64,000 nt of DNA from an uncultured Pseudomonadota bacterium. GTDB taxonomy: Bacteria > Pseudomonadota > Alphaproteobacteria > Rs-D84. This document shows, piece by piece, positions 8,696 to 47,278 of the stretch. The stretch spans positions 89,205 to 153,204 of the forward strand of contig CADAKI010000002.1 of the NCBI GenBank assembly GCA_902788485.1, written 5' to 3'. Numbering within the stretch: position 1 is the stretch's first letter; the number at the start of each line of letters is the position of its first letter. The translations under genes were made by a program, and so were the position numbers. Under the pieces are notes generated by a model that was given only the letters and a program-made list of their open reading frames with translations, had not been told where the DNA came from and made no database searches.

Positions 8696-8719
8696 AAAAA
8701 CTCCTTTTTGTTATAACAA

Positions 8720-8739
8720 AAAATCCCCCGCCGCGGGGG
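8720..8739 (-). terminator. Leader terminator 2 of the tail-fibre gene
   Basis: On the minus strand a CCCCCG/CGGGGG stem with a tiny loop is followed by ATTTTTT. It lies between the promoter and the tail-fibre start, about 25 bases before the ATG. Confidence 0.75.
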
Positions 8740-8749
8740 CAGGGGCAAT

Positions 8750-8776
8750 AAAAAAAACCGGGCAAAATTCACCCAG
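8750..8776 (-). terminator. Leader terminator 1 of the tail-fibre gene
   Basis: On the minus strand AACTGGGT and GCCCGGTT form an 8-bp stem with G-T pairs, followed by eight T. It begins only about 12 bases after the -10 box, so transcripts should stop here unless the polymerase is modified. Confidence 0.75.
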
Positions 8777-8787
8777 TTGATAGCACT

Positions 8788-8816
8788 ATTATATCATAAA
8801 TGCGACAAAAAATCAA
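8788..8816 (-). promoter_or_regulatory. Tail-fibre promoter (shared regulon type)
   Basis: Minus strand: TTGATT (8811-8816), exactly 17 bases, TATAAT (8788-8793). The same hexamers, spacing and following double terminator occur at 35601-35629 and 47250-47278. Confidence 0.85.
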
Positions 8817-23671: not shown

Positions 23672-24892
23672 TTATATAACGGTTGCATTATTGGTTGCGA
23701 TTGCAATCGGGGCCAGATATTTTAATTCTGCATCACTGTGCAGAGATATCGGTTCAATCACACCGCGCCGCGATAATATTTGTAATCCGCGTTCACACAA
23801 CGGCCGTATAAATTCATGCAATAAACGACCGTATGTTGCGCCCAACACGCGCATCATATCGGCGTTGCGTGCCAAAACCTCGGTTGCGGTCATATCACGG
23901 TCAGATATTAACCCCAATCTGTCGGCCAATAATGTGTGACGAATTCTGTCGCGTAAATCAGACAGCACTAATTGTGATACATCGAAATTTGCGCCACATG
24001 TCAATGGGGTTAAACCCGAACTGCCCACGGCTTTTGGAATAATTGCGCCCGGGGTTAAATTTATATTTTGCAAATTGATAACGCCGTCATCATCGGCCTG
24101 CCAAATACCACTGACGGCAATGGTTGCGTTTTTCAAAACTAATTCGACAACTTTGTTTGCGGTCTTGATATCCGGCAATGCGCGCAGCACCGGTCCACGT
24201 CCATACAGTTCGCCACTGCATAAATTCCAACGGAAAATTAAATATGGGTTTGTATCAAAATGCCCGGTGTTCAAAATTTCAGGTCCCGAATCAATATCCA
24301 ACCATGCGATAAAATCCAATCCAACCAAAGATTGAACAACACGGAATTTTGCATCAATGTCTGATTCCATTTTTTTACGCAACGTGTCCGATGGGGTCCA
24401 TGTTGGATACGCCGTTGCGATTTCATTTGCGGTCATAGATGTCGTATGAAATACGGCGTTTTCCAAAATTGCGATGTCTTGCATTGGAATCGCGGTAAAT
24501 GAAAAAGCAGACGCCGCACCAATCGGATTTTCCGCCATGAATAAACATGCCGTGCCATAAATGCATAAATCCATATAACATTGATGAACAGTTGTATAAA
24601 AATTAGAATCGTTCAAATTTGCACGTAATGTGTTTGTTGCGATTTCTGGGTCTGGGGACATATCACTTTCGCGTGTCAGGTTTATCCACAATGATTCCGG
24701 TGGTGTCAACAGAGTATAAATTGATGCCGCCAAATTATCCACCGCATCGGCCGCCGTGCCATCAAACAATGTTGCCGCATCTGTATCAGTTGTGGGAATT
24801 GTATAACGACGCGCATCGTCCCATCGTTTTAACCACGGTTCACGGATATTCAATGCACGAGTGTACATTTTTTGTAAATTTTGTATGTTCAT
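23672..24892 (-). CDS. Podovirus portal (head-to-tail connector) protein
   Basis: 406 residues, AAGGAG upstream. N-terminus LQKMYTRALNIREPWLKRWDDARRYTIP, then DGTAADAVDNLAASIYTLLTPPESLWINLT, DLCIYGTACLFMAENP, RWNLCSGELYGRGPVLRALPDIKTANKVVELVLKNATIAVSG (only partly quoted here as known signatures). These match T7 gp8-type connectors, which form the twelve-fold ring through which DNA enters. It is shorter than T7 gp8 (about 535 aa), with the loss mostly at the C-terminus. The gene follows the terminase nuclease gene by 25 bases in one operon. Confidence 0.9.
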   Translation of the reverse strand: MNIQNLQKMYTRALNIREPWLKRWDDARRYTIPTTDTDAATLFDGTAADAVDNLAASIYTLLTPPESLWINLTRESDMSPDPEIATNTLRANLNDSNFYTTVHQCYMDLCIYGTACLFMAENPIGAASAFSFTAIPMQDIAILENAVFHTTSMTANEIATAYPTWTPSDTLRKKMESDIDAKFRVVQSLVGLDFIAWLDIDSGPEILNTGHFDTNPYLIFRWNLCSGELYGRGPVLRALPDIKTANKVVELVLKNATIAVSGIWQADDDGVINLQNINLTPGAIIPKAVGSSGLTPLTCGANFDVSQLVLSDLRDRIRHTLLADRLGLISDRDMTATEVLARNADMMRVLGATYGRLLHEFIRPLCERGLQILSRRGVIEPISLHSDAELKYLAPIAIATNNATVI

Positions 24893-24917: not shown

Positions 24918-25766
24918 TTAAATTTTGAAATTTGTGTTTGCATGAAATGTTCGAATTGTTGTCCCCATTGGTCTGATTGGTACGGGCACAGCGTTGATTG
25001 CGCCACTTAACGCGTCCAATCCATCATCGTGTCCGATGCCGCCAATAGGGGACCATCCAATCATTTCAGACAATAATGGGGTTTGTTGAATTTTTTGGTG
25101 TGCGAACAATCGTCCCGCCCCCAACAACGGTTCCAACGCATTCATAATTCGGTCTTCTTTTTTTGCGTGATTATTGACGCGTTGCACAACAATGCCGCCA
25201 CCAATATTTGCAATCTTATCGGTCAAAATTTCGGGCAGGGCGTTTCCCAACCCATTAACTTCAACCGCCAATCGTCGCATTTTATATTTATTCAGAAATT
25301 CCAAAACCAAATCACATTGGTATGTTAATGGCTGGGTGTGGTCGCGCGGCACAACCATATACATTATATCGTGCAGAAATATATTATGTGATTTATCATC
25401 GCGAAATATAAATGCACACACACTGGCGTCGGTATTTTTATGTCCCAACGACGGATCCCAATACATGGCGGCGCCGGTGACACACCAATCGCCCAGGCGG
25501 CCTGTGTGAAAATTAAAATCCCAATCGTAAAATTGAATTTTTCCTGGGTCCAGGCGCACATTTTCTAATGGCCTAAATTCCAACATCATTTGCGCCATAA
25601 AGTGATGTTCGCCCACGGTTTGACGCAGATTTGAAATTTTATCAATGCTGAAAACTTCGGGCCATGCGGACGCGCCGTCGGAATTTAATATTGGCATTAA
25701 AAATTTTTTATATCCCGATAAAAAAGGCGTTGAAAAATGAAATTTTTTATTTACTATAAATGACAT
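24918..25766 (-). CDS. Terminase large subunit, nuclease half (split gene)
   Basis: 282 residues from ATG 25766. The frame reaches 25841, but this ATG has GGGAG eight bases before it on the minus strand. It corresponds to the C-terminal half of podovirus TerL: the linker (AWPEVFSIDKISNLRQTVG) and an RNase H-like nuclease with D104 (AMYWDPSLG), E169 (RLAVEVNGLG) and the GHDDGLDAL acidic motif at 246-252. There is no Walker A; the ATPase half is a separate gene at 29108-29713. Its start codon shares the palindrome CATG with the dnaB start on the other strand. Its ribosome site therefore lies inside dnaB. It would cut packaged DNA, in trans with the ATPase. Confidence 0.9.
   Translation of the reverse strand: MSFIVNKKFHFSTPFLSGYKKFLMPILNSDGASAWPEVFSIDKISNLRQTVGEHHFMAQMMLEFRPLENVRLDPGKIQFYDWDFNFHTGRLGDWCVTGAAMYWDPSLGHKNTDASVCAFIFRDDKSHNIFLHDIMYMVVPRDHTQPLTYQCDLVLEFLNKYKMRRLAVEVNGLGNALPEILTDKIANIGGGIVVQRVNNHAKKEDRIMNALEPLLGAGRLFAHQKIQQTPLLSEMIGWSPIGGIGHDDGLDALSGAINAVPVPIRPMGTTIRTFHANTNFKI
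25730..25757 (+). promoter_or_regulatory. Promoter of a leaderless dnaB
   Basis: TTGAAA (25730-25735), 16 bases, TACTAT (25752-25757), then 7 bases to the dnaB ATG at 25765. Transcription would start at or next to the ATG. There is no ribosome site, which agrees with a leaderless message. The promoter lies inside the terminase nuclease coding sequence. Confidence 0.6.
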
Positions 25767-27419: not shown

Positions 27420-28427
27420 ATGGCACAAGAAGAAATCATTTTTCCAAACAATATTCGTACAATTCGGTTAAACAACGGTATGAAAATGACCGAACTGGCG
27501 CGCAAAACGGGGTTGAGTTTATCCGCTGTATCTAAAATTGAAAAGGGTGTTCGTCGTTTGAACCAAAAACAACTTTTGAACATCTGCAATATTTTGGGAT
27601 GCAAATTATCTGACATTTTTATCAAAGAATCTGATGCGGTTGCCGACAAATGGCAAACGGAAATCAAACGTCGCCTTTCCGATAATGAACATGGCGGATT
27701 GAAAGTGTTTGGTTCGGGTCTGCGCAAAATTCGTCAATTACAGGGCAAAACCATTGCCCAGGCGGCCAAAGACGCCGGTATGACATTGTCGGTTTATCAT
27801 AAAATCGAAATCGGTCAACGCGAAATATATAAAAACGAGGTTGAGCCCCTGGCAAAATCATTTGCAATGTCGGCGGATTCAATGTTTGATAAAATCGCAA
27901 ATTTATACAAATCTGGCGAATTGACCAAACAAATAAACAAGGTCAAAGAACGCGTGAAATCTGTATTGGTCCCTGATAATCCGGCATCCGGCATTGATAT
28001 GCATGACGGGTTGTATGGTGCCAAATTGTACGACAGTGCGCGTCGCAAATTGGTTCCTGTATTTGGTTCACCAAACGGCAAAACAATTTCGTTCAAGAAA
28101 AATGACAAAATCATGATTGTTGCCCCCGCATCACTCGAGGGTCGCAAATCGATTTATGCGGTTATTCCAAATTCTAAACGCAGTGGCGGATTTATTCCTG
28201 AAAAATCATATGTGTTTATCGATGCAATGCAAACGGCGGAAAATGGTGATTTGGCATTGTGTATGGATGTTGATTTTGCAAATTTATCACCGGATGATAC
28301 GGTTGATGCGAACATTGCGGTCGTTCATACTGATTCCAAGGGTAAAAAGTATGGCGCATTGGTTGATCCTGCGGAAAAGTTTTATGCAAAAACTATGCAT
28401 CGGGTTGTTTTGATTTTGACCGAATAA
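27420..28427 (+). CDS. Double-HTH (XRE) repressor-like regulator
   Basis: 335 residues, AAGGAG upstream. Two XRE helix-turn-helix domains: residues about 8-65 (MKMTELARKTGLSLSAVSKIEKG) and 98-150 (KTIAQAAKDAGMTLSVYHKIEIG). The C-terminal half (about 205-335) resembles the S24/LexA-type fold of phage repressors: NDKIMIVAPASLEGRKSIYAVIPNS, PEKSYVFIDAMQTAENGDLALCMD. I see no clear Ser-Lys catalytic pair, so self-cleavage is doubtful. It lies between the two terminase halves, beside an unknown gene. It is my best candidate for the regulator of the dispersed virion genes, by position only. Confidence 0.82.
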   Translation: MAQEEIIFPNNIRTIRLNNGMKMTELARKTGLSLSAVSKIEKGVRRLNQKQLLNICNILGCKLSDIFIKESDAVADKWQTEIKRRLSDNEHGGLKVFGSGLRKIRQLQGKTIAQAAKDAGMTLSVYHKIEIGQREIYKNEVEPLAKSFAMSADSMFDKIANLYKSGELTKQINKVKERVKSVLVPDNPASGIDMHDGLYGAKLYDSARRKLVPVFGSPNGKTISFKKNDKIMIVAPASLEGRKSIYAVIPNSKRSGGFIPEKSYVFIDAMQTAENGDLALCMDVDFANLSPDDTVDANIAVVHTDSKGKKYGALVDPAEKFYAKTMHRVVLILTE

Positions 28428-28451: not shown

Positions 28452-29111
28452 ATGAAACAAAAATCAAATATCATTGCACAAAAATTGGTCAACCTGTATC
28501 GCCAGGAACACGTTATTTTGGGCGGATGGACGGCATTGAATCCAATATTTTTGGATGAAGGTACCGATGAAGTTTTGAACGCAATGGCGGATTTGCCAAC
28601 GGGAAAAATGTTGGCGGCCCACATTATGAATTTGCGCAGTGGCAAAACCCCAATGGACTCAATTGACCGGAATTTGTTGCCATATGGTGGTTTGATGGAT
28701 GAATCTGCAATTACAAAACCCATAAATGATGAACAATGGACCGTATTGAGTGATGCATTGAATAAATTCACGCCAACCCAACAAGGCCTGCAAGAATTAC
28801 AAAAATTGGATGTTGTAAAACGTTTTGGCGACCAATGGTTAAACGGGATAAAAACCATTTTGTCAGGAAATACCGAATTGTCTGAAAAATGGCGTGTCGT
28901 GATGCAAACTTGGCGCGCATATCATTTGTGGGATATGGCAACACAAATTGTATCACAACCATTGACCGAACACACCCGTGCCCAGATTCAGGCCGATATG
29001 CCGGAATACGAAACATTTTTGCCAATGTTCGGTGATGCTGGCAAAAATTTACTGGAAAAATTGCGCACATTTATGAAGGACTCAAAACACACGGCGCAAA
29101 ATCCAGATTAA
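28452..29111 (+). CDS. Unknown helical protein downstream of the double-HTH regulator
   Basis: 219 residues, GGAGAGAGA ribosome site 24 bases after the regulator stop, so cotranscribed. It is soluble and alpha-helical: NIIAQKLVNLYRQEHVILGGW, ILSGNTELSEKWRVVMQTWRAYHLWD, DMPEYETFLPMFGDAGKNLLEKLRTFM. No family recognised. Its end overlaps the terminase ATPase end by four bases (convergent). The pairing with a repressor-like gene and virion genes suggests a role in the same system. Confidence 0.75.
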   Translation: MKQKSNIIAQKLVNLYRQEHVILGGWTALNPIFLDEGTDEVLNAMADLPTGKMLAAHIMNLRSGKTPMDSIDRNLLPYGGLMDESAITKPINDEQWTVLSDALNKFTPTQQGLQELQKLDVVKRFGDQWLNGIKTILSGNTELSEKWRVVMQTWRAYHLWDMATQIVSQPLTEHTRAQIQADMPEYETFLPMFGDAGKNLLEKLRTFMKDSKHTAQNPD

Positions 29112-29713
29112 TCGTCGTCATTTGTTCTGTATATCGTATCCATTGTATGTGGCGTTCCGATATAAATCATTGTGCCATTTGGCGACAAAATAAAATCCAA
29201 TTCACGCAACCTTTCGCGTAATGCGACACGTTTTTGTGGTGTATTTGCGGTATTTGGAACCTCAACATCATCACATATAATTAAATCTGCACGCATACCG
29301 GTAATATTTCCATGGATACCTTGGCATACAACCGATGGTTCGCGAATTCCAACCGGACGATTGATTGTGATTTTATCAGACGCCCACTCTTTTTTATTTT
29401 TTGGAATTAAATCGCCGCACCATGGATGATTTTCTAATATATTTTTAATATGCGCAACCATGCGCGCGGCCAACACTGTATGCGCAGACAAAACCAAAAT
29501 GCGGGTTTCGGGACGCATGTATAAAACGCACGCGGCAAAAATTCCAACCACGGTTGATTTTCCCGAATGACGAAATGCCATCAATAAACCTTTGTGGTCT
29601 GGATTTTGCCACACATCATACAGAAATTTCAGCATATCTTGATGATGTCGCGGGGTTGTATATCCCAACACATGATTCCACGCATCAGCGAATTGATATA
29701 CCTGCGTAATCAT
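29108..29713 (-). CDS. Terminase large subunit, ATPase half (split gene)
   Basis: 201 residues. It carries the packaging ATPase motifs and nothing more: Walker A AFRHSGKST (46-54), Walker B LIICDDVE (144-151) and the coupling motif MIYIGTPHTMDTIY (182-195), ending six residues later. The nuclease half is the separate gene 24918-25766. The two protein halves together (483 residues) would make one slightly short T7-type TerL with almost nothing missing at the join. It would drive DNA into the capsid through the portal. The ATG is 5 bases after the stop of the preceding gene. Confidence 0.9.
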   Translation of the reverse strand: MITQVYQFADAWNHVLGYTTPRHHQDMLKFLYDVWQNPDHKGLLMAFRHSGKSTVVGIFAACVLYMRPETRILVLSAHTVLAARMVAHIKNILENHPWCGDLIPKNKKEWASDKITINRPVGIREPSVVCQGIHGNITGMRADLIICDDVEVPNTANTPQKRVALRERLRELDFILSPNGTMIYIGTPHTMDTIYRTNDDD

Positions 29714-29718
29714 TTTAT

Positions 29719-30069
29719 TTATCCAACGATGTTTTCAAATCGCGCCAGCCAATTTTTCAACAGATTTGTTTTCTTTGTCGTTTTTGTATTTTTTAATTTT
29801 TCCAAATTTGCCAATTTTTTATCCGTGTATGGTTGTGACGCCTCGTCGCGTAATCGTGCCAGGACGCTGCCTGCGCTGGTGCTGGATGCGTTAACACCCG
29901 CGGCGCCGTATTTTGCGCGTTGCGTCGCCAATGATTTTTTTACCAGGTTTGTTTTTGCCTTTTCATCTTGGGCCATTTGTTGCAAAATATTTAACCTGGC
30001 ATTATTGTCTGATTTTTTTGATTTTTGATAATCTAATATTTGCGTCACATCTGAAACTAATTGTCCCAT
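29719..30069 (-). CDS. Internal virion protein, T7 gp14-like
   Basis: 116 residues, TAGGAGG upstream. It is helical and Gln/Lys-rich, with ARLNILQQMAQDEKAKTNLVKKSLATQRAKYGAAGVN (partly quoted), a Ser/Ala-rich turn SSTSAGSVLARLRDEA and a basic end. The AQRAxxGAxGVxxxxGSxxxxL pattern is typical of small internal virion or ejection proteins of podoviruses. Position between tail tubular protein B and terminase fits. The larger T7 gp15/gp16-type ejection proteins are not visible. Confidence 0.72.
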   Translation of the reverse strand: MGQLVSDVTQILDYQKSKKSDNNARLNILQQMAQDEKAKTNLVKKSLATQRAKYGAAGVNASSTSAGSVLARLRDEASQPYTDKKLANLEKLKNTKTTKKTNLLKNWLARFENIVG

Positions 30070-30090: not shown

Positions 30091-31803
30091 TTAAATTTCA
30101 TATTGTCCATATACCGTGACAGATAACACCGTAATCGGTCCAGATTCCGCGCCATATATAACCCATGGCGCAACAGATGGGTCGATTTGTGAACCCAAAA
30201 AATTCATTGAAACATCACCAGAAAATCCCGGATGCCCCGGCGAATAAGTTTCATTTGGCAATTCAACACGCATGTCGTTTATAAATGCGCCACGTGTTTG
30301 CCATAACCGTAAATTTATTTTACGTAATCTTAAATGGTTTGGTCTGTGGCCTGAAAAATTCATTGGAACGCCTGCAATCATACATGGAATTTCATGCGTG
30401 CCTGAATCATTATGTGCGGTATCGGAAAAACGTGCCAATTTGTATGTTCCCATATACTCTAATACAACAAATGTTTCGCCACCGCTTTCTGCGACCGATA
30501 CAAATTTTGCGTACGCAGTGTATCGCGCCCATGCAGAAATTCCCAAACCAACATCGTATGTTAATACCGACATATCACCATCAGAATTCACAACAAATAA
30601 ATGTTTGGACGATTTGTTATAACAAATATCAATCGGGTTATTGATTAAATGTTTTGCAAATGCACATAAATCATCCGCATTGTATTTTTCACCCAATGTA
30701 TCCAGTGATAATTTTCTGATATCTTTCAAATTACTGGATATAAAAACCGTTTCATTTTCAATTTTTTGTGGAATTAAACAACGCGATGCGACACTGCCAA
30801 CGGAAGTGTGTTGTTTTATGTTTATATCTGACGGGGTCAACGGTTGGTTTGATATGGCCCACTCGCCGGTTGATGTCAGTATTTGCAATTTATCACTGCT
30901 GATTAAATAACAAATCTGTTGTCGTTCTTTGGATAACAATGTGGTAATAATCGCCTCGTCATCTAAACCGGTCCCGACATCAAAGTTATAATGTTGTCCG
31001 ACATGCGACATCCAAATTCCACCCGGCACAGAATGTGTTCCACCAAAAACCAACCTGTCTTGATGAAACGTGATTGCACACGGCCAACCATGCCGATAAT
31101 CAAATGCGCTTTCCAACCAATCTGTGATTGGGTCTGCGGGTAAAGTATATTCTATTGGGCTGGTGGCATATACAACGGTCGGGCTGACATATTCTGTGAT
31201 TTGCCATAATTGGTTATTGAAACAAACAAATGTTTCAACATTTGTCGATGTCCAATAATTTTCAGATGCCGTAAATGTGGCAGATTTAACCCCATATGGC
31301 CCGGCCGTCACGGTTAACGCCACACCACGCATATCATCGTATTTTATCAATGGGACCTTGGAATATAATCCTGACGCATCATAAAAATTGAATTTACACA
31401 AAGAAAAACCATCGCTGTCTTTGGTTAAAACATACGGTGGTACATCCGGGTGCGTAAATATCACAGAATTCCCGCGACCGGCAAATTGTATATTTGGTAA
31501 TGCCGATTCCAACCATGGTGATACGATTGTATCAACGACGGTATCATTGGAAAAAATTGTAATTTTGCGATTTGTAAAAACCAAAATATAATTTTCTTGT
31601 TCGGACATATCGCATGAAAATATGCGTGCATTTCCATCCAATGTTGCGATATCGACGATACCAAATCTGCGTGTGACACCGCCACCTGACAACACATCCA
31701 TGTTTTCCAATCGTGACAGTCCCGAAATATTTTTTGTTAAATAAAATTCTGGTGCGATTTCACCGTTTGCAAAAGAATTTTGCGAATGTATAAACTCTGT
31801 CAT
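30091..31803 (-). CDS. Tail tubular protein B-like (nozzle) protein
   Basis: 570 residues, AAGGAG upstream. The N-terminus SQNSFANGEIAPEFYLTKNISGLSRLENMDVLSGGGVTRRFG (partly quoted) carries the 'F..GE.SP...R.D...Y..G......G...R.G' signature of T7 gp12-type nozzle proteins. The middle has beta-propeller-like strands (QDRLVFGGTHSVPGGIWMS, LDDEAIITTLLSKERQQI). T7 gp12 has 794 residues, so this is a reduced form. It should form the tail tip tube with the protein from 31824. Confidence 0.9.
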   Translation of the reverse strand: MTEFIHSQNSFANGEIAPEFYLTKNISGLSRLENMDVLSGGGVTRRFGIVDIATLDGNARIFSCDMSEQENYILVFTNRKITIFSNDTVVDTIVSPWLESALPNIQFAGRGNSVIFTHPDVPPYVLTKDSDGFSLCKFNFYDASGLYSKVPLIKYDDMRGVALTVTAGPYGVKSATFTASENYWTSTNVETFVCFNNQLWQITEYVSPTVVYATSPIEYTLPADPITDWLESAFDYRHGWPCAITFHQDRLVFGGTHSVPGGIWMSHVGQHYNFDVGTGLDDEAIITTLLSKERQQICYLISSDKLQILTSTGEWAISNQPLTPSDINIKQHTSVGSVASRCLIPQKIENETVFISSNLKDIRKLSLDTLGEKYNADDLCAFAKHLINNPIDICYNKSSKHLFVVNSDGDMSVLTYDVGLGISAWARYTAYAKFVSVAESGGETFVVLEYMGTYKLARFSDTAHNDSGTHEIPCMIAGVPMNFSGHRPNHLRLRKINLRLWQTRGAFINDMRVELPNETYSPGHPGFSGDVSMNFLGSQIDPSVAPWVIYGAESGPITVLSVTVYGQYEI

Positions 31804-31823: not shown

Positions 31824-32342
31824 TTAGAATCGGACGTTTATCAACGAAAAATCACGTACGCCCGCATCAGAATCGGTTGTTGAATCTATAAATTTGGCGG
31901 TTTGTAATTCTGATTCATATAAACTGACCAATGTTCTGAACATTTGTTGGTTTCCGGTCAAAGGCATGCAAAATTCCATTGCCAATCTGGTTGCCGCCAA
32001 TGATATAAAATAACTTGGAAAATCTTCTACATCAACATTTACGACGGCCAATAATTTAACATTGTCTGAATGTGAAAATATTTTTTTCCCGCAAACATGT
32101 CCATTGCATTTCAAAATTCTTAAAACATTTTCTGGAATAATTAAATTACCATCTGTGTCGCGTTCAATCAAAACCGCGTCTGTTGCGAAACGCCACGGAT
32201 GGGATGACAACAAAGAATTTAATGTGACATCGCACAGTGTTCTTGCTAATTGTGCGGCGGCGGTATCCGATGTCAATGATACCAACGGCTGTTCACCCAA
32301 TTTTAATAACGCCATGGAACATAAATCTTGTTTGGTTAGCAT
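31824..32342 (-). CDS. Tail tubular protein A-like (adaptor) protein
   Basis: 172 residues, AAGGAG upstream. LTKQDLCSMALLKLGEQPLVSLTSDTAAAQLARTLCDVTLNSLLSSHPWRFA is the conserved start of T7 gp11-type adaptors (partly quoted). The helical end YFISLAATRLAMEFCMPLTGNQQMFRTLVSLYESEL completes it. It joins portal to nozzle. Order relative to the tail tubular protein B gene is as in podoviruses. Confidence 0.9.
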   Translation of the reverse strand: MLTKQDLCSMALLKLGEQPLVSLTSDTAAAQLARTLCDVTLNSLLSSHPWRFATDAVLIERDTDGNLIIPENVLRILKCNGHVCGKKIFSHSDNVKLLAVVNVDVEDFPSYFISLAATRLAMEFCMPLTGNQQMFRTLVSLYESELQTAKFIDSTTDSDAGVRDFSLINVRF

Positions 32343-32361: not shown

Positions 32362-32397
32362 TAAAAAAATCGGGGTGGGATAAAGTTTTTCCCACCC
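32362..32397 (-). terminator. Intrinsic terminator inside the virion operon
   Basis: Minus-strand 8-bp perfect stem GGGTGGGA/TCCCACCC, then CG and seven or more T. It lies between the decoration gene and the tail tubular A gene. Read-through is needed for the tail genes unless they have their own promoter. Confidence 0.85.
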
Positions 32398-32426
32398 GGT
32401 ATTATTTTTTATGAATCAAAAAATGA

Positions 32427-32657
32427 TTAATCTAATGCCGCAACCGACACAACATTATCTGCGACACTGATTGCGCGCATGGCGGTTTTATCCGACGCAT
32501 TAATCAATATAATGTCCCCAGAATTCATCAATGTCACAACATTGTTAAAATAACCACTTGTTGCAATCGTTGCCAATGTTTCATTTGCTGCATAATGCCA
32601 CAAAGTAAAACCGTTTGCATATGCAATTACAGATAATTTTTTATTTTGAAACGCCAT
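32427..32657 (-). CDS. Phage head decoration-like protein
   Basis: 76 residues, AAAGGAAAA upstream. NGFTLWHYAANETLATIATSGYFNNVVTLMNSGDIILI follows the 'G..LW.Y...D....V...GYF.......L..GD.I.V' pattern of small proteins encoded after podovirus and other phage capsid genes, thought to decorate the head (partly quoted). The position just after the capsid gene supports it. Confidence 0.75.
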   Translation of the reverse strand: MAFQNKKLSVIAYANGFTLWHYAANETLATIATSGYFNNVVTLMNSGDIILINASDKTAMRAISVADNVVSVAALD

Positions 32658-32699: not shown

Positions 32700-33524
32700 T
32701 TATGCGTTATCTTTGCATTTGATACGAACGATACCGTCCTGATCAATCAATACGGCACCTTGGGACATGCTGTTGCTGATAAAGTGCGCCGCACGTTCGC
32801 CATGCCATGTAATATCGGTTTTAACTTCTTGACCGCATGCATGACCAACCGATGACGCGTGATAAATAAAGCAACTGCGATTGGTTGAACTGGCCAATGG
32901 CAAATCGTTGTGCAAAACCCATGTAATGCCCAACCATTTTCTGGCCTCGAACCCATTGATAAACGGATTAGAATCGCCGACATATTCTGCCGAAACAAAT
33001 TCATTGATGCCCAACAATTCGTTCCATTGATGCACACCGACCACGGCGAATCTGCGACCGTCATCTGGTACATCTTTTTCATTGATTTTTTCAACGGCTT
33101 CTAAAATTAAATCTTTGGTTAAACCGGTTGTAAAATCGCCAACATACGCAGATGCATTATCCATCGCAGATATAATCAATTCATCTGTTTTGCGACCCAA
33201 TGCATACGCACCGGCGGACGCGACAACACGACGTTCATCAACATTGGTTTTCAATTCATCCAATGCATCAACCCAATCACCGGCGTAATAATCTTGCAAT
33301 ACGCATTCCACAGGTTGATGATTTAAATTCATAACCGGCACAATACCATGTCTTGATTTTGTGCTGGCGGTACCACGACCGATGCTTTGAAATGTTGTAG
33401 ATTGTCCCACGACGCCTGATTTGCTGCGCACAGTGGAACGCAATTTTGTGCCCATTTGTTGATATGCCAAATGAACATCTGCTTCAAATTGTTTCACGAA
33501 AACTTGATCTATGGAAACAGACAT
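32700..33524 (-). CDS. Major capsid protein
   Basis: 274 residues from ATG 33524, which has AAGGA. The frame runs upstream to 33563 without a ribosome site. The N-terminus reads SIDQVFVKQFEADVHLAYQQMG, followed by VGQSTTFQSIGRGTAS, VECVLQDYYAGDWVDALDELKTNVDERRVVASAGAYALGRKTDELI (partly quoted) and DDGRRFAVVGVHQWNELL. This is the HK97-fold capsid type found in T7-like and related podoviruses. Shorter than T7 gp10A (345 aa). Confidence 0.9.
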   Translation of the reverse strand: MSVSIDQVFVKQFEADVHLAYQQMGTKLRSTVRSKSGVVGQSTTFQSIGRGTASTKSRHGIVPVMNLNHQPVECVLQDYYAGDWVDALDELKTNVDERRVVASAGAYALGRKTDELIISAMDNASAYVGDFTTGLTKDLILEAVEKINEKDVPDDGRRFAVVGVHQWNELLGINEFVSAEYVGDSNPFINGFEARKWLGITWVLHNDLPLASSTNRSCFIYHASSVGHACGQEVKTDITWHGERAAHFISNSMSQGAVLIDQDGIVRIKCKDNA

Positions 33525-33545
33525 AATTTTTCCTTTTGTTGTTAA

Positions 33546-33573
33546 AATAAAAACAAAGTGCAACGAATTGCAC
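33546..33573 (-). terminator. Hairpin in the capsid gene leader
   Basis: Minus-strand GTGCAA-TTCG-TTGCAC with a stable UUCG loop, followed by TTTGTTTTTATTTT, about 20 bases before the capsid ATG. It can act as a terminator or attenuator. A second possible hairpin (AACCAGA/TCTGGTT) lies at about 33672-33694 in the same leader. Confidence 0.65.
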
Positions 33574-33706
33574 CGACCTTTGATTTGATTTTGTTTTTTT
33601 GATTATGCAAATAAATTTGCGTCATATTACAAAACGCGGGGTCTGGATTCAGATTTTCCTGCAACAGTTTTAACCAGACAAAATATATCTGGTTAAGATT
33701 GTGGCA

Positions 33707-33735
33707 AATAAAAACCCGCAATTTCTTGCGGGTTT
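33707..33735 (-). terminator. Terminator of the histone-like gene
   Basis: Minus-strand 10-bp perfect stem AAACCCGCAA/TTGCGGGTTT followed by T-rich sequence. It lies 20 bases beyond the stop at 33756. Confidence 0.85.
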
Positions 33736-33755: not shown

Positions 33756-34073
33756 TTATTTTCTTTTAGCAGCTGGTTTTTTTGCGGCAACTTTTTTCGC
33801 AGGTGCTTTTTTAGCAACTGTTTTTTTTGCAGCAACTTTTTTCACTGCTGGTTTTTTCGCAGCGACTTTTTTCGCAGGTGCTTTTTTAGCAACTGGTTTT
33901 TTTGCAGCAACTTTTTTAGCAACTGGCTTTTTCGCAGCAACTTTTTTCACTGCTGGTTTTTTCGCAGCGACTTTTTTCGCAGCTGGTTTTGCAGCAACTT
34001 TTTTCACTGCAACTTTTTTTGCAGCAGGTTTCGCTGCTGGTTTTTTTGCGGCTGCTCTTTTCAAACAGAACAT
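33756..34073 (-). CDS. Histone H1-like Lys/Ala-rich DNA-binding protein
   Basis: 105 residues made almost wholly of AAKKPAAKK/VAAKK-type repeats, with an MFCLKR start and a GGAGAGA ribosome site. Such proteins coat DNA through charge, as do Hc1/HctB-like and AlgP-like proteins. It stands inside the virion operon between scaffold and capsid genes, with its own probable promoter (TTTACT-N17-TAAAAT) and its own terminator. It could condense host DNA for packaging, or be a host gene caught in the cluster. The internal repeat makes its length unstable. Confidence 0.8.
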   Translation of the reverse strand: MFCLKRAAAKKPAAKPAAKKVAVKKVAAKPAAKKVAAKKPAVKKVAAKKPVAKKVAAKKPVAKKAPAKKVAAKKPAVKKVAAKKTVAKKAPAKKVAAKKPAAKRK

Positions 34074-34187: not shown

Positions 34188-34847
34188 TTATTCAGAATAT
34201 AATTTTTTAAAACCATTTTCAATTTTGTGAACATATTCTGGATCTTGATCGCGCCAATATTTTGGATCACGCATCATGCGTCGTAAATCTGCATCGGTTA
34301 AATTTTCATGTGCATCACCATTGGTGTTTATGTGTGGTTCCACCGATTGCATCATTTGATAAATGCCTTGGATTCCTGCGGCAGATTCACACAAAGATTC
34401 AAATGCATCATGTGGTAAAAATTTTTCACCAAATGTATTTATTGCATTTAATGCGTCGTTCATTTTTTCGCGTGAACCGAAAAATTTTTCTAACTTTGAC
34501 ATCTCTGTATTTTCATTTTTCATTGAAAATAAATCTGCGATGACTGGTGATAAAAATTCTTCTGCCACAGAATAAATTTGTTCTACTTGATGTTTTGTTA
34601 AACCGATATCGTGAAATTTTTGTTTAATCGATTCGTCATCGAACAAATTATTTGATGGGTAATCATTTGCATTTTGTGGCACACCAATTGCGCGATAAAA
34701 TTTTTCACGTACGGTTTTATCCGAATCATCATTTGGGATTGACACCATGTTTCCCATTTTCTTTTCTAATTCAGAATAAGATTTCATCAATGCTTCGACA
34801 TTGACGCTACCGTCTTGATTTTGAAATTTTTCCGGTATTTTTTGCAT
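34188..34847 (-). CDS. Capsid assembly scaffold protein
   Basis: 219 residues from ATG 34847, with AAGGA seven bases before. The upstream in-frame start at 34868 lies further inside the holin gene. The N-terminus PEKFQNQDGSVNVEALMKSYSELEKKMG is the signature of podovirus scaffold proteins (partly quoted). A VREKFYRAIGVPQNANDY region and an acidic helical end (DLRRMMRDPKYWRDQDPEYVHKIENGFKKLY, partly quoted) follow, matching the C-terminal capsid-binding helix. It is lost after head assembly in phages. Confidence 0.85.
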   Translation of the reverse strand: MQKIPEKFQNQDGSVNVEALMKSYSELEKKMGNMVSIPNDDSDKTVREKFYRAIGVPQNANDYPSNNLFDDESIKQKFHDIGLTKHQVEQIYSVAEEFLSPVIADLFSMKNENTEMSKLEKFFGSREKMNDALNAINTFGEKFLPHDAFESLCESAAGIQGIYQMMQSVEPHINTNGDAHENLTDADLRRMMRDPKYWRDQDPEYVHKIENGFKKLYSE

Positions 34848-35043
34848 GACTATTCCTTTTTGTTTCACCAGATTTTCTTAAAAAATAAATTCCGCCCAAC
34901 GTGAATACAGATTGCATAGTTAAAAACAAATCTGTGTCACCGACTAAATAAGAAGCTATCGCGGACAAAATCCCCATGCCCGACAAAATATATGTTCTGT
35001 GTCCGGCCAAGAATCCGCCACGGATAATTTTTTGTACCTTCAT
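34807..35043 (-). CDS. Holin-like small membrane protein
   Basis: 78 residues. Two hydrophobic stretches lie at about 17-35 (TYILSGMGILSAIASYLVG) and 38-55 (LFLTMQSVFTLGGIYFLR), followed by a basic tail RKSGETKRNSHAKNTGKISKSRR (partly quoted). Size and layout fit a phage holin that opens the inner membrane for the endolysin encoded just upstream. Its end overlaps the scaffold start by 41 bases. Confidence 0.72.
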   Translation of the reverse strand: MKVQKIIRGGFLAGHRTYILSGMGILSAIASYLVGDTDLFLTMQSVFTLGGIYFLRKSGETKRNSHAKNTGKISKSRR

Positions 35044-35061: not shown

Positions 35062-35472
35062 TCACAGATAAAAAAACAAACCATCCATTTCCAAAATATA
35101 TCCGCGTGCGCGTGACCAATCTGGATTAAATTCGTCACGGTGAAATTTTGTTGCCCCGAAACAGCAATCATCCAAATTATGTTTTAACATTTTATCAACG
35201 ACGCGCAGACACATTTGAAATGTTCGTGCATCTGGGTTGACATTTAACAAATCATGATGTGATGATTTTTTATTTAAACATTCGAACAATCCGGACTTCA
35301 TCACAAAATCCAATTCAGATTGCCCAGATTTTTGTGCGCCATTTGCAATCATCGATGCCAACGCCTCGACAACGCGTAACGATTGTGCGCATGTTTCTGC
35401 GAACACCACTCGTGCAATTTTATAAACATCTGTGTCGAAATCATTTTGATGTTTTTTTATATTTAATCGCAT
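35062..35472 (-). CDS. Endolysin, SleB-like cell wall hydrolase
   Basis: 136 residues from ATG 35472, behind AAAGGACGAGAG. DVYKIARVVFAETCAQSLRVVEALASMIANGA carries the catalytic Glu (about E26) of the Hydrolase_2/SleB family (partly quoted). CCFGATKFHRDEFNPDWSRA and GLFFYL match its C-terminal part, in which a 'GATxF' motif and an aromatic end are usual. It would cut peptidoglycan to release particles. It is the first gene of the lysis/virion operon. It follows the promoter with a double terminator. Confidence 0.82.
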   Translation of the reverse strand: MRLNIKKHQNDFDTDVYKIARVVFAETCAQSLRVVEALASMIANGAQKSGQSELDFVMKSGLFECLNKKSSHHDLLNVNPDARTFQMCLRVVDKMLKHNLDDCCFGATKFHRDEFNPDWSRARGYILEMDGLFFYL

Positions 35473-35512: not shown

Positions 35513-35539
35513 TAAAAAAAGCGCACCCAAACAGTGCGC
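35513..35539 (-). terminator. Leader terminator 2 of the lysis/virion operon
   Basis: Minus-strand 6-bp stem GCGCAC/GTGCGC with a 7-base loop, followed by seven T. About 40 bases before the endolysin ATG. Confidence 0.8.
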
Positions 35540-35550
35540 CAAAAAAAGTA

Positions 35551-35576
35551 AAAAAAATCACACCATTGCGGTGCGT
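35551..35576 (-). terminator. Leader terminator 1 of the lysis/virion operon
   Basis: Minus-strand stem CGCACC/GGTGTG (one G-T pair) followed by GATTTTTTTT-type sequence. It begins about 25 bases after the -10 box. Confidence 0.75.
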
Positions 35577-35600
35577 ATAATTTCTGCTCTTGATGTTGCC

Positions 35601-35629
35601 ATTATAACACAAATCGAAATGCAAGTCAA
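35601..35629 (-). promoter_or_regulatory. Promoter of the lysis/virion operon (shared regulon type)
   Basis: Minus strand: TTGACT (35624-35629), exactly 17 bases, TATAAT (35601-35606). It lies between the birA stop and the tandem terminators. Same design as 8788-8816 and 47250-47278. Confidence 0.9.
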
Positions 35630-35634
35630 GTGTT

Positions 35635-36315
35635 TTATATCATAATCTCGTCGCCATATGCCAAAACATAACGTGTTCCGCATAATAAAACCAATGCGCC
35701 ATTTTCATTTATTCCAATCAGTTGTGCGGTTGCCCCACGATATTTCACGGTTGTATTCAGTCCACATGCCATTGACATCCAACGTGTGCGCACCTGGGAA
35801 AAATCTGCGACAATCCATTTATCCAGAAATTTCATCAATTTTCCCAACACATCATTTACATTTAATTTTACATAATTATCAGTTTTTGTCGTTTTATATT
35901 CTGGGACAGTTGGATTTGTTGCAATATTTATACCGATTCCGACGACGACGAACCGACCAAAATATTCGATTAAAATTCCAGAAATTTTTTTATCATCCAC
36001 CAATATATCATTTGGCCACTTTATCATCGGGGTAATTCCAAAAGAATACAATGTATCCGCCACCGCCACCGCCACCGCATACGATAATCGTGCATCGCGT
36101 TCTGGGGCGGCATAAATAAAACTGGCATATAAATTTCCGTGATGCGACACCCATTTTCGGCGGAAACGTCCGCGACCATCACTTTGTGCGGCGGCGCAAA
36201 TAACGGTGTGATCACCGGCACGATGTGACGCAATTAAATTTTGCGCCATTGTTTGGGTACTGGGGATTTTGTCAAAAGAAATAACTTTATACAGACCCAA
36301 TTTTATACACCCCAT
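35635..36315 (-). CDS. birA: Biotin-[acetyl-CoA-carboxylase] ligase
   Basis: 226 residues from ATG 36315; the frame is open further upstream. Signatures: IPSTQTMAQNL, SDGRGRFRRKWVS (the biotinyl-AMP loop), GNLYASFI, KWPNDILVDDKKISGILIE and VVVGIGINIATN. It joins biotin to carboxylase carrier proteins. There is no N-terminal repressor domain; a winged-helix-like protein is encoded just upstream and overlaps its start by 29 bases, which may be a split form of the BirA layout. Confidence 0.93.
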   Translation of the reverse strand: MGCIKLGLYKVISFDKIPSTQTMAQNLIASHRAGDHTVICAAAQSDGRGRFRRKWVSHHGNLYASFIYAAPERDARLSYAVAVAVADTLYSFGITPMIKWPNDILVDDKKISGILIEYFGRFVVVGIGINIATNPTVPEYKTTKTDNYVKLNVNDVLGKLMKFLDKWIVADFSQVRTRWMSMACGLNTTVKYRGATAQLIGINENGALVLLCGTRYVLAYGDEIMI

Positions 36316-36706
36316 TTTCCAAAATAATAAAATCGCGACCACATAATTTACGCAGGTTATAAATAGCCGTGTCAATCGTGTGTGTTGCAATCGGCATATA
36401 ATCCAACGCGCGTTTTAATTCGACGCCCGACATACCGCCACTGCGCACCAGCGCGACAATAACGCGTTCTTGCACATCAGATAACGCCGGCATTTTATCC
36501 CCAAACACAGACCGCAAAATTTTCGTGTTATCTAAATTATTTAAAATCAGTTCCTTTAATTCATCAATGCGCACCGGTCCATTTGTCGTAATATCATCCA
36601 TATTCACAACATCGATGTCCAATGTGTCGACAACAACCGCGCCCAGTTCCCGCAACACATGGCGCCACATATCATCCGACGAAAAAATTCTGATACCGTC
36701 TAACAT
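36287..36706 (-). CDS. Winged-helix-like protein upstream of birA
   Basis: 139 residues. The C-terminal half (LSDVQERVIVALVRSGGMSGVELKRALDY, partly quoted; HTIDTAIYNLRKLCG; IILENGVYKI) resembles the OmpR-type winged helix, where the HTIDxxIxxLRKK recognition helix is followed by a hairpin 'GxGYxL'. The N-terminal half is unassigned (WRHVLRELGAVVVDTLDIDVV), with a loose receiver or partner-like look. A DNA-binding role is likely. It overlaps birA and so is cotranscribed. Confidence 0.65.
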   Translation of the reverse strand: MLDGIRIFSSDDMWRHVLRELGAVVVDTLDIDVVNMDDITTNGPVRIDELKELILNNLDNTKILRSVFGDKMPALSDVQERVIVALVRSGGMSGVELKRALDYMPIATHTIDTAIYNLRKLCGRDFIILENGVYKIGSV

Positions 36707-46005: not shown

Positions 46006-47166
46006 CTATTTGGCATCTATAAACATTTTATAAGTCCATTCCCGTCTAGATTTTTGAACATCTTTTCTCTGTCTTGCTTCCTTTCCTGCTGTCCGCCAAT
46101 CGCGATTATCAATCGCTTGAAATAACTTTGGCCAATTGTTATCAGAAAATTTTTTGTTTCCCATATTAAATTGCATATCAACTAAAGCTCGCTTAACGGA
46201 TATAGGAAAATCGTTAAAGTTTTCTATTTTTTGTTCTAGTTCGTTATAAGATTTTTCTAACATTGTATTAAATTGATTGTAAATGTCATTTTTTGATATC
46301 TCTAAATCAGAATAGTTTTTTTCTTTAAAGGTATTGTCAGATATCTCTTGCATAATTTGAGAATACAATTGTTCTTTTTGAGGTTCATCTAACACATTAC
46401 CTGTTTGTGTGTCTAATATGTTTAACTCTTTGAATTTATTTAATTCACTAATATTTTGACCAATGCCCACTGTAAGAATATTTTTAGAATCTAAATAAAA
46501 ATGTTGTTTAATCCCTTCAAATTTCAAAACTTCTTCTTTAAATTTTTTAGTAAGTACATTTTTCATAATAATTTTCTTTTTTAATTCTTCATTTATTTTT
46601 ACTTCTGTCCAATGGCCGGGTTTTACAGCGCCATTTTCTTTGATTTTGTTTTCTGTTCTGAATTTATCTATTGCATTGAATAATCTTTGATTTGGGTATT
46701 GGTTTAATTGTTTTTTTGATTCGCCGGCACGCGTGTCAGGTTCATAATATCCCAATTTAGTCAACGCCTTTTTTAACCATTCAACATCATGCGTATCAAC
46801 ATTTCTGTCACTGGCAACATCTTGATGCAAATGAGAATCATGATAATGTGCGTTTTCTATATCGGTCGCATTTAACGTACAACGACAGTTTGGATGAAAC
46901 GGTGGTCCAGACACGATTTCGTCGTCAACAATCAAAGCCACACAGCCACCGCAATCACCACCGCAATCTATGGTAGTATAAGTGTGTTCTACTTCATCAT
47001 ATTCTTCATCAAAATCATCTTCCAAATCTTCATCAATTTCATCATCGGTTTCATCATCAATATCATCTGTTGTTATTTCTGGTTCTATTTTCGGTGGATT
47101 GGCATAAATATCTATGACCAATTCACCATTTTCGTTCCAAGTGGCACCTTCCCACATATCACTCAT
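46006..47166 (-). CDS. MuF-like / peptidoglycan-binding / T4-type lysozyme fusion
   Basis: 386 residues from ATG 47166, with AAGGAG. The frame extends to 47226 without a ribosome site. Residues 28-60 are very acidic. Residues 66-100 carry the phage Mu gpF-type motif: DCGGDCGGC, then PPFHPNCRCTLNA. Residues about 125-190 resemble a peptidoglycan-binding helical domain (VEWLKKALTKLGYYEPDTR). Residues about 200-386 are a GH24 lysozyme with the triad E217-D226-T232, whose spacing equals T4 lysozyme E11-D20-T26, and RALVDMQFNMGN near the end. MuF-type proteins ride inside virions and often carry toxins or enzymes. The gene has the same promoter and double terminator as the tail-fibre and lysis operons. 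Confidence 0.82.
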   Translation of the reverse strand: MSDMWEGATWNENGELVIDIYANPPKIEPEITTDDIDDETDDEIDEDLEDDFDEEYDEVEHTYTTIDCGGDCGGCVALIVDDEIVSGPPFHPNCRCTLNATDIENAHYHDSHLHQDVASDRNVDTHDVEWLKKALTKLGYYEPDTRAGESKKQLNQYPNQRLFNAIDKFRTENKIKENGAVKPGHWTEVKINEELKKKIIMKNVLTKKFKEEVLKFEGIKQHFYLDSKNILTVGIGQNISELNKFKELNILDTQTGNVLDEPQKEQLYSQIMQEISDNTFKEKNYSDLEISKNDIYNQFNTMLEKSYNELEQKIENFNDFPISVKRALVDMQFNMGNKKFSDNNWPKLFQAIDNRDWRTAGKEARQRKDVQKSRREWTYKMFIDAK

Positions 47167-47188: not shown

Positions 47189-47208
47189 AAAAAAACCGCC
47201 AAACGCGG
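47189..47208 (-). terminator. Leader terminator 2 of the MuF/lysozyme gene
   Basis: Minus-strand CCGC-GTTTG-GCGG followed by seven T, about 25 bases before the ATG. Confidence 0.75.
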
Positions 47209-47212
47209 ATAT

Positions 47213-47234
47213 AAAAAACGGCACAAAATGTGCC
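47213..47234 (-). terminator. Leader terminator 1 of the MuF/lysozyme gene
   Basis: Minus-strand 6-bp stem GGCACA/TGTGCC with a 3-base loop, then GTTTTTT. It begins about 15 bases after the -10 box. Confidence 0.8.
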
Positions 47235-47249
47235 TTTGAAGTTGAGAGC

Positions 47250-47278
47250 ATTATATCACAAAACAACAAAAAAATCAA
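47250..47278 (-). promoter_or_regulatory. Promoter of the MuF/lysozyme gene (shared regulon type)
   Basis: Minus strand: TTGATT (47273-47278), exactly 17 bases, TATAAT (47250-47255). The spacer ends TTTTGTGA, close to TTTATGA in the tail-fibre promoter. Confidence 0.88.

Follow-up and report, generated by a model that had tools for sequence, protein, structure and literature searches.

Why would a lysis and virion operon open with a strong promoter whose transcripts run into two terminators before they reach the first gene? The question arises from a leader on the minus strand, between birA and an endolysin gene (35629-35472), in the 64,000-nucleotide stretch of DNA analysed here (the window). 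The initial annotation described TTGACT-N17-TATAAT just after birA (35629-35601), followed by two hairpins with T runs, the ribosome site AAAGGA and the endolysin gene, and we found all of these in place:

35601-35629, minus strand: sigma-70 type promoter TTGACT-N17-TATAAT with extended -10 (TG); 23/23 genus leaders keep -35, spacing and -10
35575-35595, minus strand: early transcribed element CATCAA....ATTATAC at a fixed distance from the -10, defined by conservation
35550-35575, minus strand: terminator 1, hairpin 35575-35559 plus T8
35514-35540, minus strand: terminator 2, hairpin 35540-35520 plus T run

The promoter, which begins 6 bases 3' of the birA stop, matches the consensus at 5/6 positions of the -35 (TTGACT) and 6/6 of the -10 (TATAAT), with TG upstream. 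Hairpin 1 reads CGCACC-GCAAT-GGTGTG, followed by A and T8, and hairpin 2 reads GGCGCACT..GGTGCGCT, followed by T6-7; we infer from the sequence that both act as terminators. The endolysin ATG at 35472, with AAAGGA 5' of it, follows the last T run after 41 bases that contain no promoter; in the window's fibre and lysozyme cassettes the corresponding gap is ~20 bases, likewise without one. With no promoter in this short gap, every transcript must pass both terminators.

The leader was compared among 23 genus operons (22 relatives plus the window) of a lineage within the order around Candidatus Enterousia; the relatives, retrieved by their capsid, are labelled Alphaproteobacteria, part of them Candidatus Enterousia. 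It precedes the endolysin gene in 23/23 operons with a fixed layout. The -35, the 17-base spacing, the TG and the -10 are retained together with several spacer bases, whose conservation the extended -10 would explain in part, and in the early transcribed region CA-N2-AA and ATTnTG are nearly invariant and recur in the three other cassettes of the genome. The adjacent hairpin sequences do not share this conservation: hairpins 1 and 2 each occur as 23 distinct sequences that are paired in all 23, with three or more pair types at most stem positions and mean energies of -7.0 (hairpin 1) and -13.1 kcal/mol (hairpin 2). Hairpin 1 of L042 is weak by a simple rule (-0.7); RNAfold gives -9.7 for its region. 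This change of sequence with pairing kept indicates that the leader terminators are under selection as terminators.

The same contrast bears on whether the product might be the short terminated RNA itself, a small regulatory RNA of ~45-90 bases with readthrough into the gene incidental. Conservation of the RNA start region would fit such a role, but hairpin and loop sequences differ in every genome and the cassette always stands directly 5' of a particle gene; we regard this as very improbable. Classical attenuation or a riboswitch, in which the leader would choose between terminator and antiterminator folds, could draw on an A-rich element whose pairing partners, in some leaders, might include the T tract and sequence past it. 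However, the ~20-25 bases 5' of hairpin 1 leave no room for an aptamer, inspection revealed no leader peptide, 32.3-35.8 kb gave no significant Rfam match, and the two consecutive terminators share no alternative pairing, making this mechanism highly unlikely.

A more serious competitor comes from the neighbouring gene. birA lies 5-37 bases upstream of the leader in 21/22 relatives, mostly without a terminator of its own, and the leader terminators also end transcripts from birA, which lacks one in nearly all genomes. The two terminators might accordingly belong to the birA transcript and insulate the particle genes, which would be expressed at a low, leaky level with no dedicated antiterminator. 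Yet the strong conserved promoter sits before, not after, the terminators; in L033 the cassette is intact though birA is 1.4 kb off; and the same cassette stands in many other contexts, at window 8816 after a tRNA gene with its own terminator. We consider insulation an unlikely explanation.

A related leader also occurs in other families of the order. There, a variant (L046-L048, L105-L107) carries the promoter followed by CAACTAATGGGATAATTGTATCC, which suggests that the early transcribed element evolves together with its factor.

Downstream, the endolysin gene opens an operon of ten podovirus-like lysis, head and tail genes reaching down to 29108, as had been proposed, and terminators previously claimed at 33.72, 33.56 and 32.38 kb do lie inside it (33735-33706, 33574-33545 and 32399-32363):

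35062-35472, minus strand: endolysin (Hydrolase_2-like / PHROG endolysin), the first gene of the operon
34807-35043, minus strand: predicted holin-like small membrane protein, conserved in the genus
34188-34847, minus strand: T7-like scaffold (PF05396)
34158-34130, minus strand: promoter-like TTTACT-N17-TAAAAT of the HC2 gene, kept in nearly all genomes
33756-34073, minus strand: HC2-like histone gene (PF07382)
33706-33735, minus strand: internal terminator before the capsid-leader RNA
33663-33586, minus strand: conserved two-hairpin RNA 5' of the capsid gene
33545-33574, minus strand: internal terminator-like hairpin directly 5' of the capsid ribosome site
32700-33524, minus strand: major capsid protein (Phage_capsid_2 / phrog_3437)
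32427-32657, minus strand: gene 76 (76 aa), phrog_18004
32363-32399, minus strand: internal terminator in the gap between gene 76 and tail tube A
31824-32342, minus strand: tail tubular protein A
30091-31803, minus strand: tail tubular protein B / nozzle
29719-30069, minus strand: 116-aa gene with weak likeness to an internal virion protein
29108-29713, minus strand: large terminase, N-terminal half
24918-25766, minus strand: large terminase, C-terminal half, a separate gene
23672-24892, minus strand: portal / head-tail adaptor

Protein queries for the endolysin started at 35454, six codons after the ATG at 35472. A terminator scan placed a terminator between scaffold/HC2 and capsid in 21/22 relatives, and one 3' of gene 76, ahead of tail tube A, in 19/22; the window has the latter too, although the scan misses it. 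Terminators within genes were rare in the same scan of the genus operons, with only 4 detected, and comparison of these operons revealed no conserved promoter downstream of the internal terminators. The 33.72 kb terminator may serve to end transcripts of the HC2 gene, given the conserved promoter-like site that this gene possesses. The HC2/histone H1-like product encoded in the particle operon (34073-33756) may compact DNA before packaging.

The two-hairpin RNA is bracketed by the 33.72 and 33.56 kb terminators. Its AYAA internal loops mirror each other, and covariation is strong, with 95% paired cells and both-side changes in 8/12 pairs. It occurs once in the genome and had no significant Rfam match when 32.3-35.8 kb was searched. 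A loose pattern for it was found 121-143 bases 5' of the capsid start in 22 of ~30 distant viral contigs, the capsids downstream of this pattern being about 60% identical; no promoter-terminator cassettes were found in the distant viral contigs. The RNA could serve in capsid binding, packaging or antitermination.

Is the leader a local peculiarity? A promoter matrix built from the 23 leaders, combined with a terminator check, was applied to the whole 843,556-base genome. Exactly four promoter-terminator-terminator cassettes were found, each 5' of particle genes. The window holds three of them, starting at 35629, 8816 and 47278:

8717-8816, minus strand: second cassette, promoter 8816-8788 plus two terminators, 5' of the tail fibre gene 8695-7784
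47189-47278, minus strand: third cassette, promoter 47278-47250 plus two terminators, 5' of the MuF-like/lysozyme gene ending at 46006

The fourth (contig C3:36973) lies 5' of a tail-fibre gene paralogous to the fibre gene at window 8816. Among 265 strong promoter-like sites in the genome, three had two terminators downstream under strict rules, and the site at 47278 was added by a looser rule; the strict rule returned no cassette in any of 12 dinucleotide-shuffled genomes, compared with three in the real one. A calibrated sequence model recovered the same four sites (E 3e-15, 5e-11, 2e-09 and 8e-07), its fifth match (E 2e-04) scoring a clear step lower and falling within a coding gene.

Sampling of other genomes added 13 cassettes, which also head phage-type genes, one lead frame being recognised by eye only; the gene begins almost directly 3' of terminator 2, too close for a further promoter to fit. 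The leads comprise a fibre paralog, an Mtd_N protein, three EcoRI-type methylases, stand-alone lysozymes, and proteins joining a MuF-like N part to exchangeable peptidoglycan-active domains (Tlde1/YkuD, lysozyme, GH108). The adenine methylases of EcoRI type behind the cassette (L223, L225, L228) are unexpected in a particle regulon. In L226, L229, L232 and L234, the shared MuF-like N part with swapped C domains resembles a virion-borne, polymorphic-effector-like set. In one of these genomes (G021, L229), capsid, p139 and p219 were undetected, yet a cassette stands 5' of the MuF-like gene, reflecting an assembly gap or partial loss.

Regulated antitermination, as by lambda Q, AlpA or Caulobacter GafZ, is in our judgement the best explanation and a likely one, with the leader serving as late promoter of a domesticated podovirus-like particle. 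Initially, a polymerase made termination-resistant had been suggested. The need for it holds insofar as a strong promoter followed by genus-conserved terminators requires readthrough or antitermination for expression. Expression by a small subpopulation only, likewise part of that suggestion, may apply as well. In the proposed sequence of events, a sigma-70 polymerase would start at TTGACT-N17-TATAAT and normally halt within ~50-90 bases at the two tandem terminators. Upon particle induction, a trans-acting factor would load onto the polymerase, either at the promoter or within the first bases transcribed, by way of the conserved spacer and early transcribed elements, and would render the polymerase termination-resistant. 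Such a polymerase could then transcribe through the conserved internal terminators and so cover the lysis, head and tail genes. As the same cassette recurs at scattered chromosomal sites, tail fibres and virion peptidoglycan hydrolases would belong to a single regulon, and one factor could turn on all parts jointly. Polymerases coming from birA meet the same terminators, which would favour loading at the promoter over a purely RNA-borne signal if only promoter-started polymerase passes.

The layout corresponds to that of promoters for which antitermination by a promoter-loaded factor has been proven. Recognition by AlpA takes place at an element between -35 and -10, and an early-transcribed -10-like pause site is required too (PMC9371919); GafZ acts likewise for the Caulobacter gene transfer agent (GTA) (PMC11150451). 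A corresponding -10-like repeat in the early transcribed region matched TATAAT in 14/39 cassettes, compared with 7.6 in shuffles (maximum 15); being within the shuffle maximum, a Q-like pause element is not convincing.

Candidates for the factor were sought among known families and neighbouring genes. The genome encodes one NusG and no NusG paralog. PF06530 (Phage_antitermQ), the lambdoid Q model that is reliably testable, had no match in the genome; PF03589 (Antiterm) scored 14 bits, below threshold, against a 952-codon frame; and PF06323 had no match, its control being silent as well. DUF6456, the label of GafA homologs (GafA/GafZ), was found in 0/53 genus and order genomes, while the Caulobacter control rang. 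Two genes near the operon drew attention:

36287-36706, minus strand: p139, with a C-terminal winged helix, adjoining birA; candidate regulator, genus-restricted
28452-29111, plus strand: p219, all-helical, paired with a double-HTH regulator (27420-28427); candidate regulator

p139 is a candidate regulator present in 53/59 genus genomes (own included). Its winged helix was matched in the C-terminal part at Z 8-9 only, with no Q or AlpA structure among the matches listed, and outside the genus it occurs in one genome, whereas related leaders reach other families. p219 is present in nearly all genus and order genomes, and its model had no PDB match at E <= 0.001. In other families, the p219 and double-HTH pair also occurs away from particle genes, which makes p219 the weaker candidate. 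In the genus, the p219 and double-HTH genes lie with dnaB between the two terminase halves on the opposite strand, so readthrough to the C-terminal terminase half and the portal would be antisense to dnaB. A specific version of antitermination, in which a promoter-loaded antiterminator of an undescribed family (p139 or p219) would combine with a put-like capsid-leader RNA to join protein- and RNA-based antitermination, appears as unlikely as insulation.

What kind of particle would such a switch control? In the genus, the virion genes occupy a fixed place between birA and dnaB, the operon contains no replication or integration genes, and fibre genes are dispersed elsewhere. The capsid gene is present in 57/59 genus genomes (own included) and most of the order, and the particle genes are under purifying selection, with dN/dS of 0.04-0.25. 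These features point to a domesticated, GTA-like particle of podovirus descent. The division of the large terminase into two genes might instead signal decay, with terminators silencing a harmful remnant. But the split is common to the order, 56/58 other genus genomes and most of the order retain the capsid, dN/dS is well below 1 and strong promoters persist, leaving decay the least credible of all the readings considered.

The nearest phage capsids belong to the Pelagibacter podoviruses EXVC031P (44% identity) and HTVC010P (31%), which are true phages, unlike the particle here; in 12.7 kb surrounding the capsid gene of EXVC031P, no strong promoter closely followed by a terminator was found. 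Closer in organisation is CcGTA of Caulobacter crescentus (GafY/GafZ; PMC11150451), also an alphaproteobacterial domesticated particle with a terminator-containing cluster. For CcGTA, antitermination is proven and the factor element lies between -35 and -10 (PMC11150451), whereas here we infer antitermination from sequence. The systems further differ in that the order lacks DUF6456, the particle here is podovirus-like rather than siphovirus-like, two terminators precede the first gene here but one follows it in CcGTA, and four cassettes stand against one GafZ target. Lambdoid Q late promoters (lambda, 21, 82) share the strong sigma-70 promoter, promoter-proximal terminator(s) and downstream lysis/virion genes; in contrast, the present system has no Q homolog where testable, involves several loci and shows no clear early -10 repeat. 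alpBCDE of Pseudomonas aeruginosa resembles it in placing chromosomal lysis genes behind a promoter and terminator, with AlpA loaded at the promoter (PMC9371919), but here a whole virion operon plus scattered fibre and hydrolase genes is involved. According to the available part of its report, FpGTA of Faecalibacterium, named there the first podovirus-like GTA candidate, likewise comes from a gut bacterium, and its operons for head, tail and lysis are located apart from one another (PMC12946183). Its host is unrelated, DNA packaging was shown for FpGTA but is putative for the particle here, and that part of the report notes no promoter-terminator cassette (PMC12946183).

The literature searched, with incomplete coverage, held no report of this particle. 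To our knowledge, GTA antitermination has been shown in Caulobacter only, at a single promoter. The present case joins a different, podovirus-derived particle, an uncultured gut lineage and a portable promoter-terminator-terminator cassette at several loci. Given the genus-wide layout, the particle genes should stay off until polymerase runs through the stops, a switch that is directly testable; the cassette offers a ready reporter design for finding it and for asking how a lethal particle stays silent. Because the cassette sequence alone delimits the regulon, many genomes can be surveyed for particle cargo (fibres, peptidoglycan hydrolases, methylase). In IMG/VR, many contigs catalogued as viruses (L245-L292) encode this same capsid, with identities reaching 95%; they are probably fragments of chromosomes from this bacterial group.
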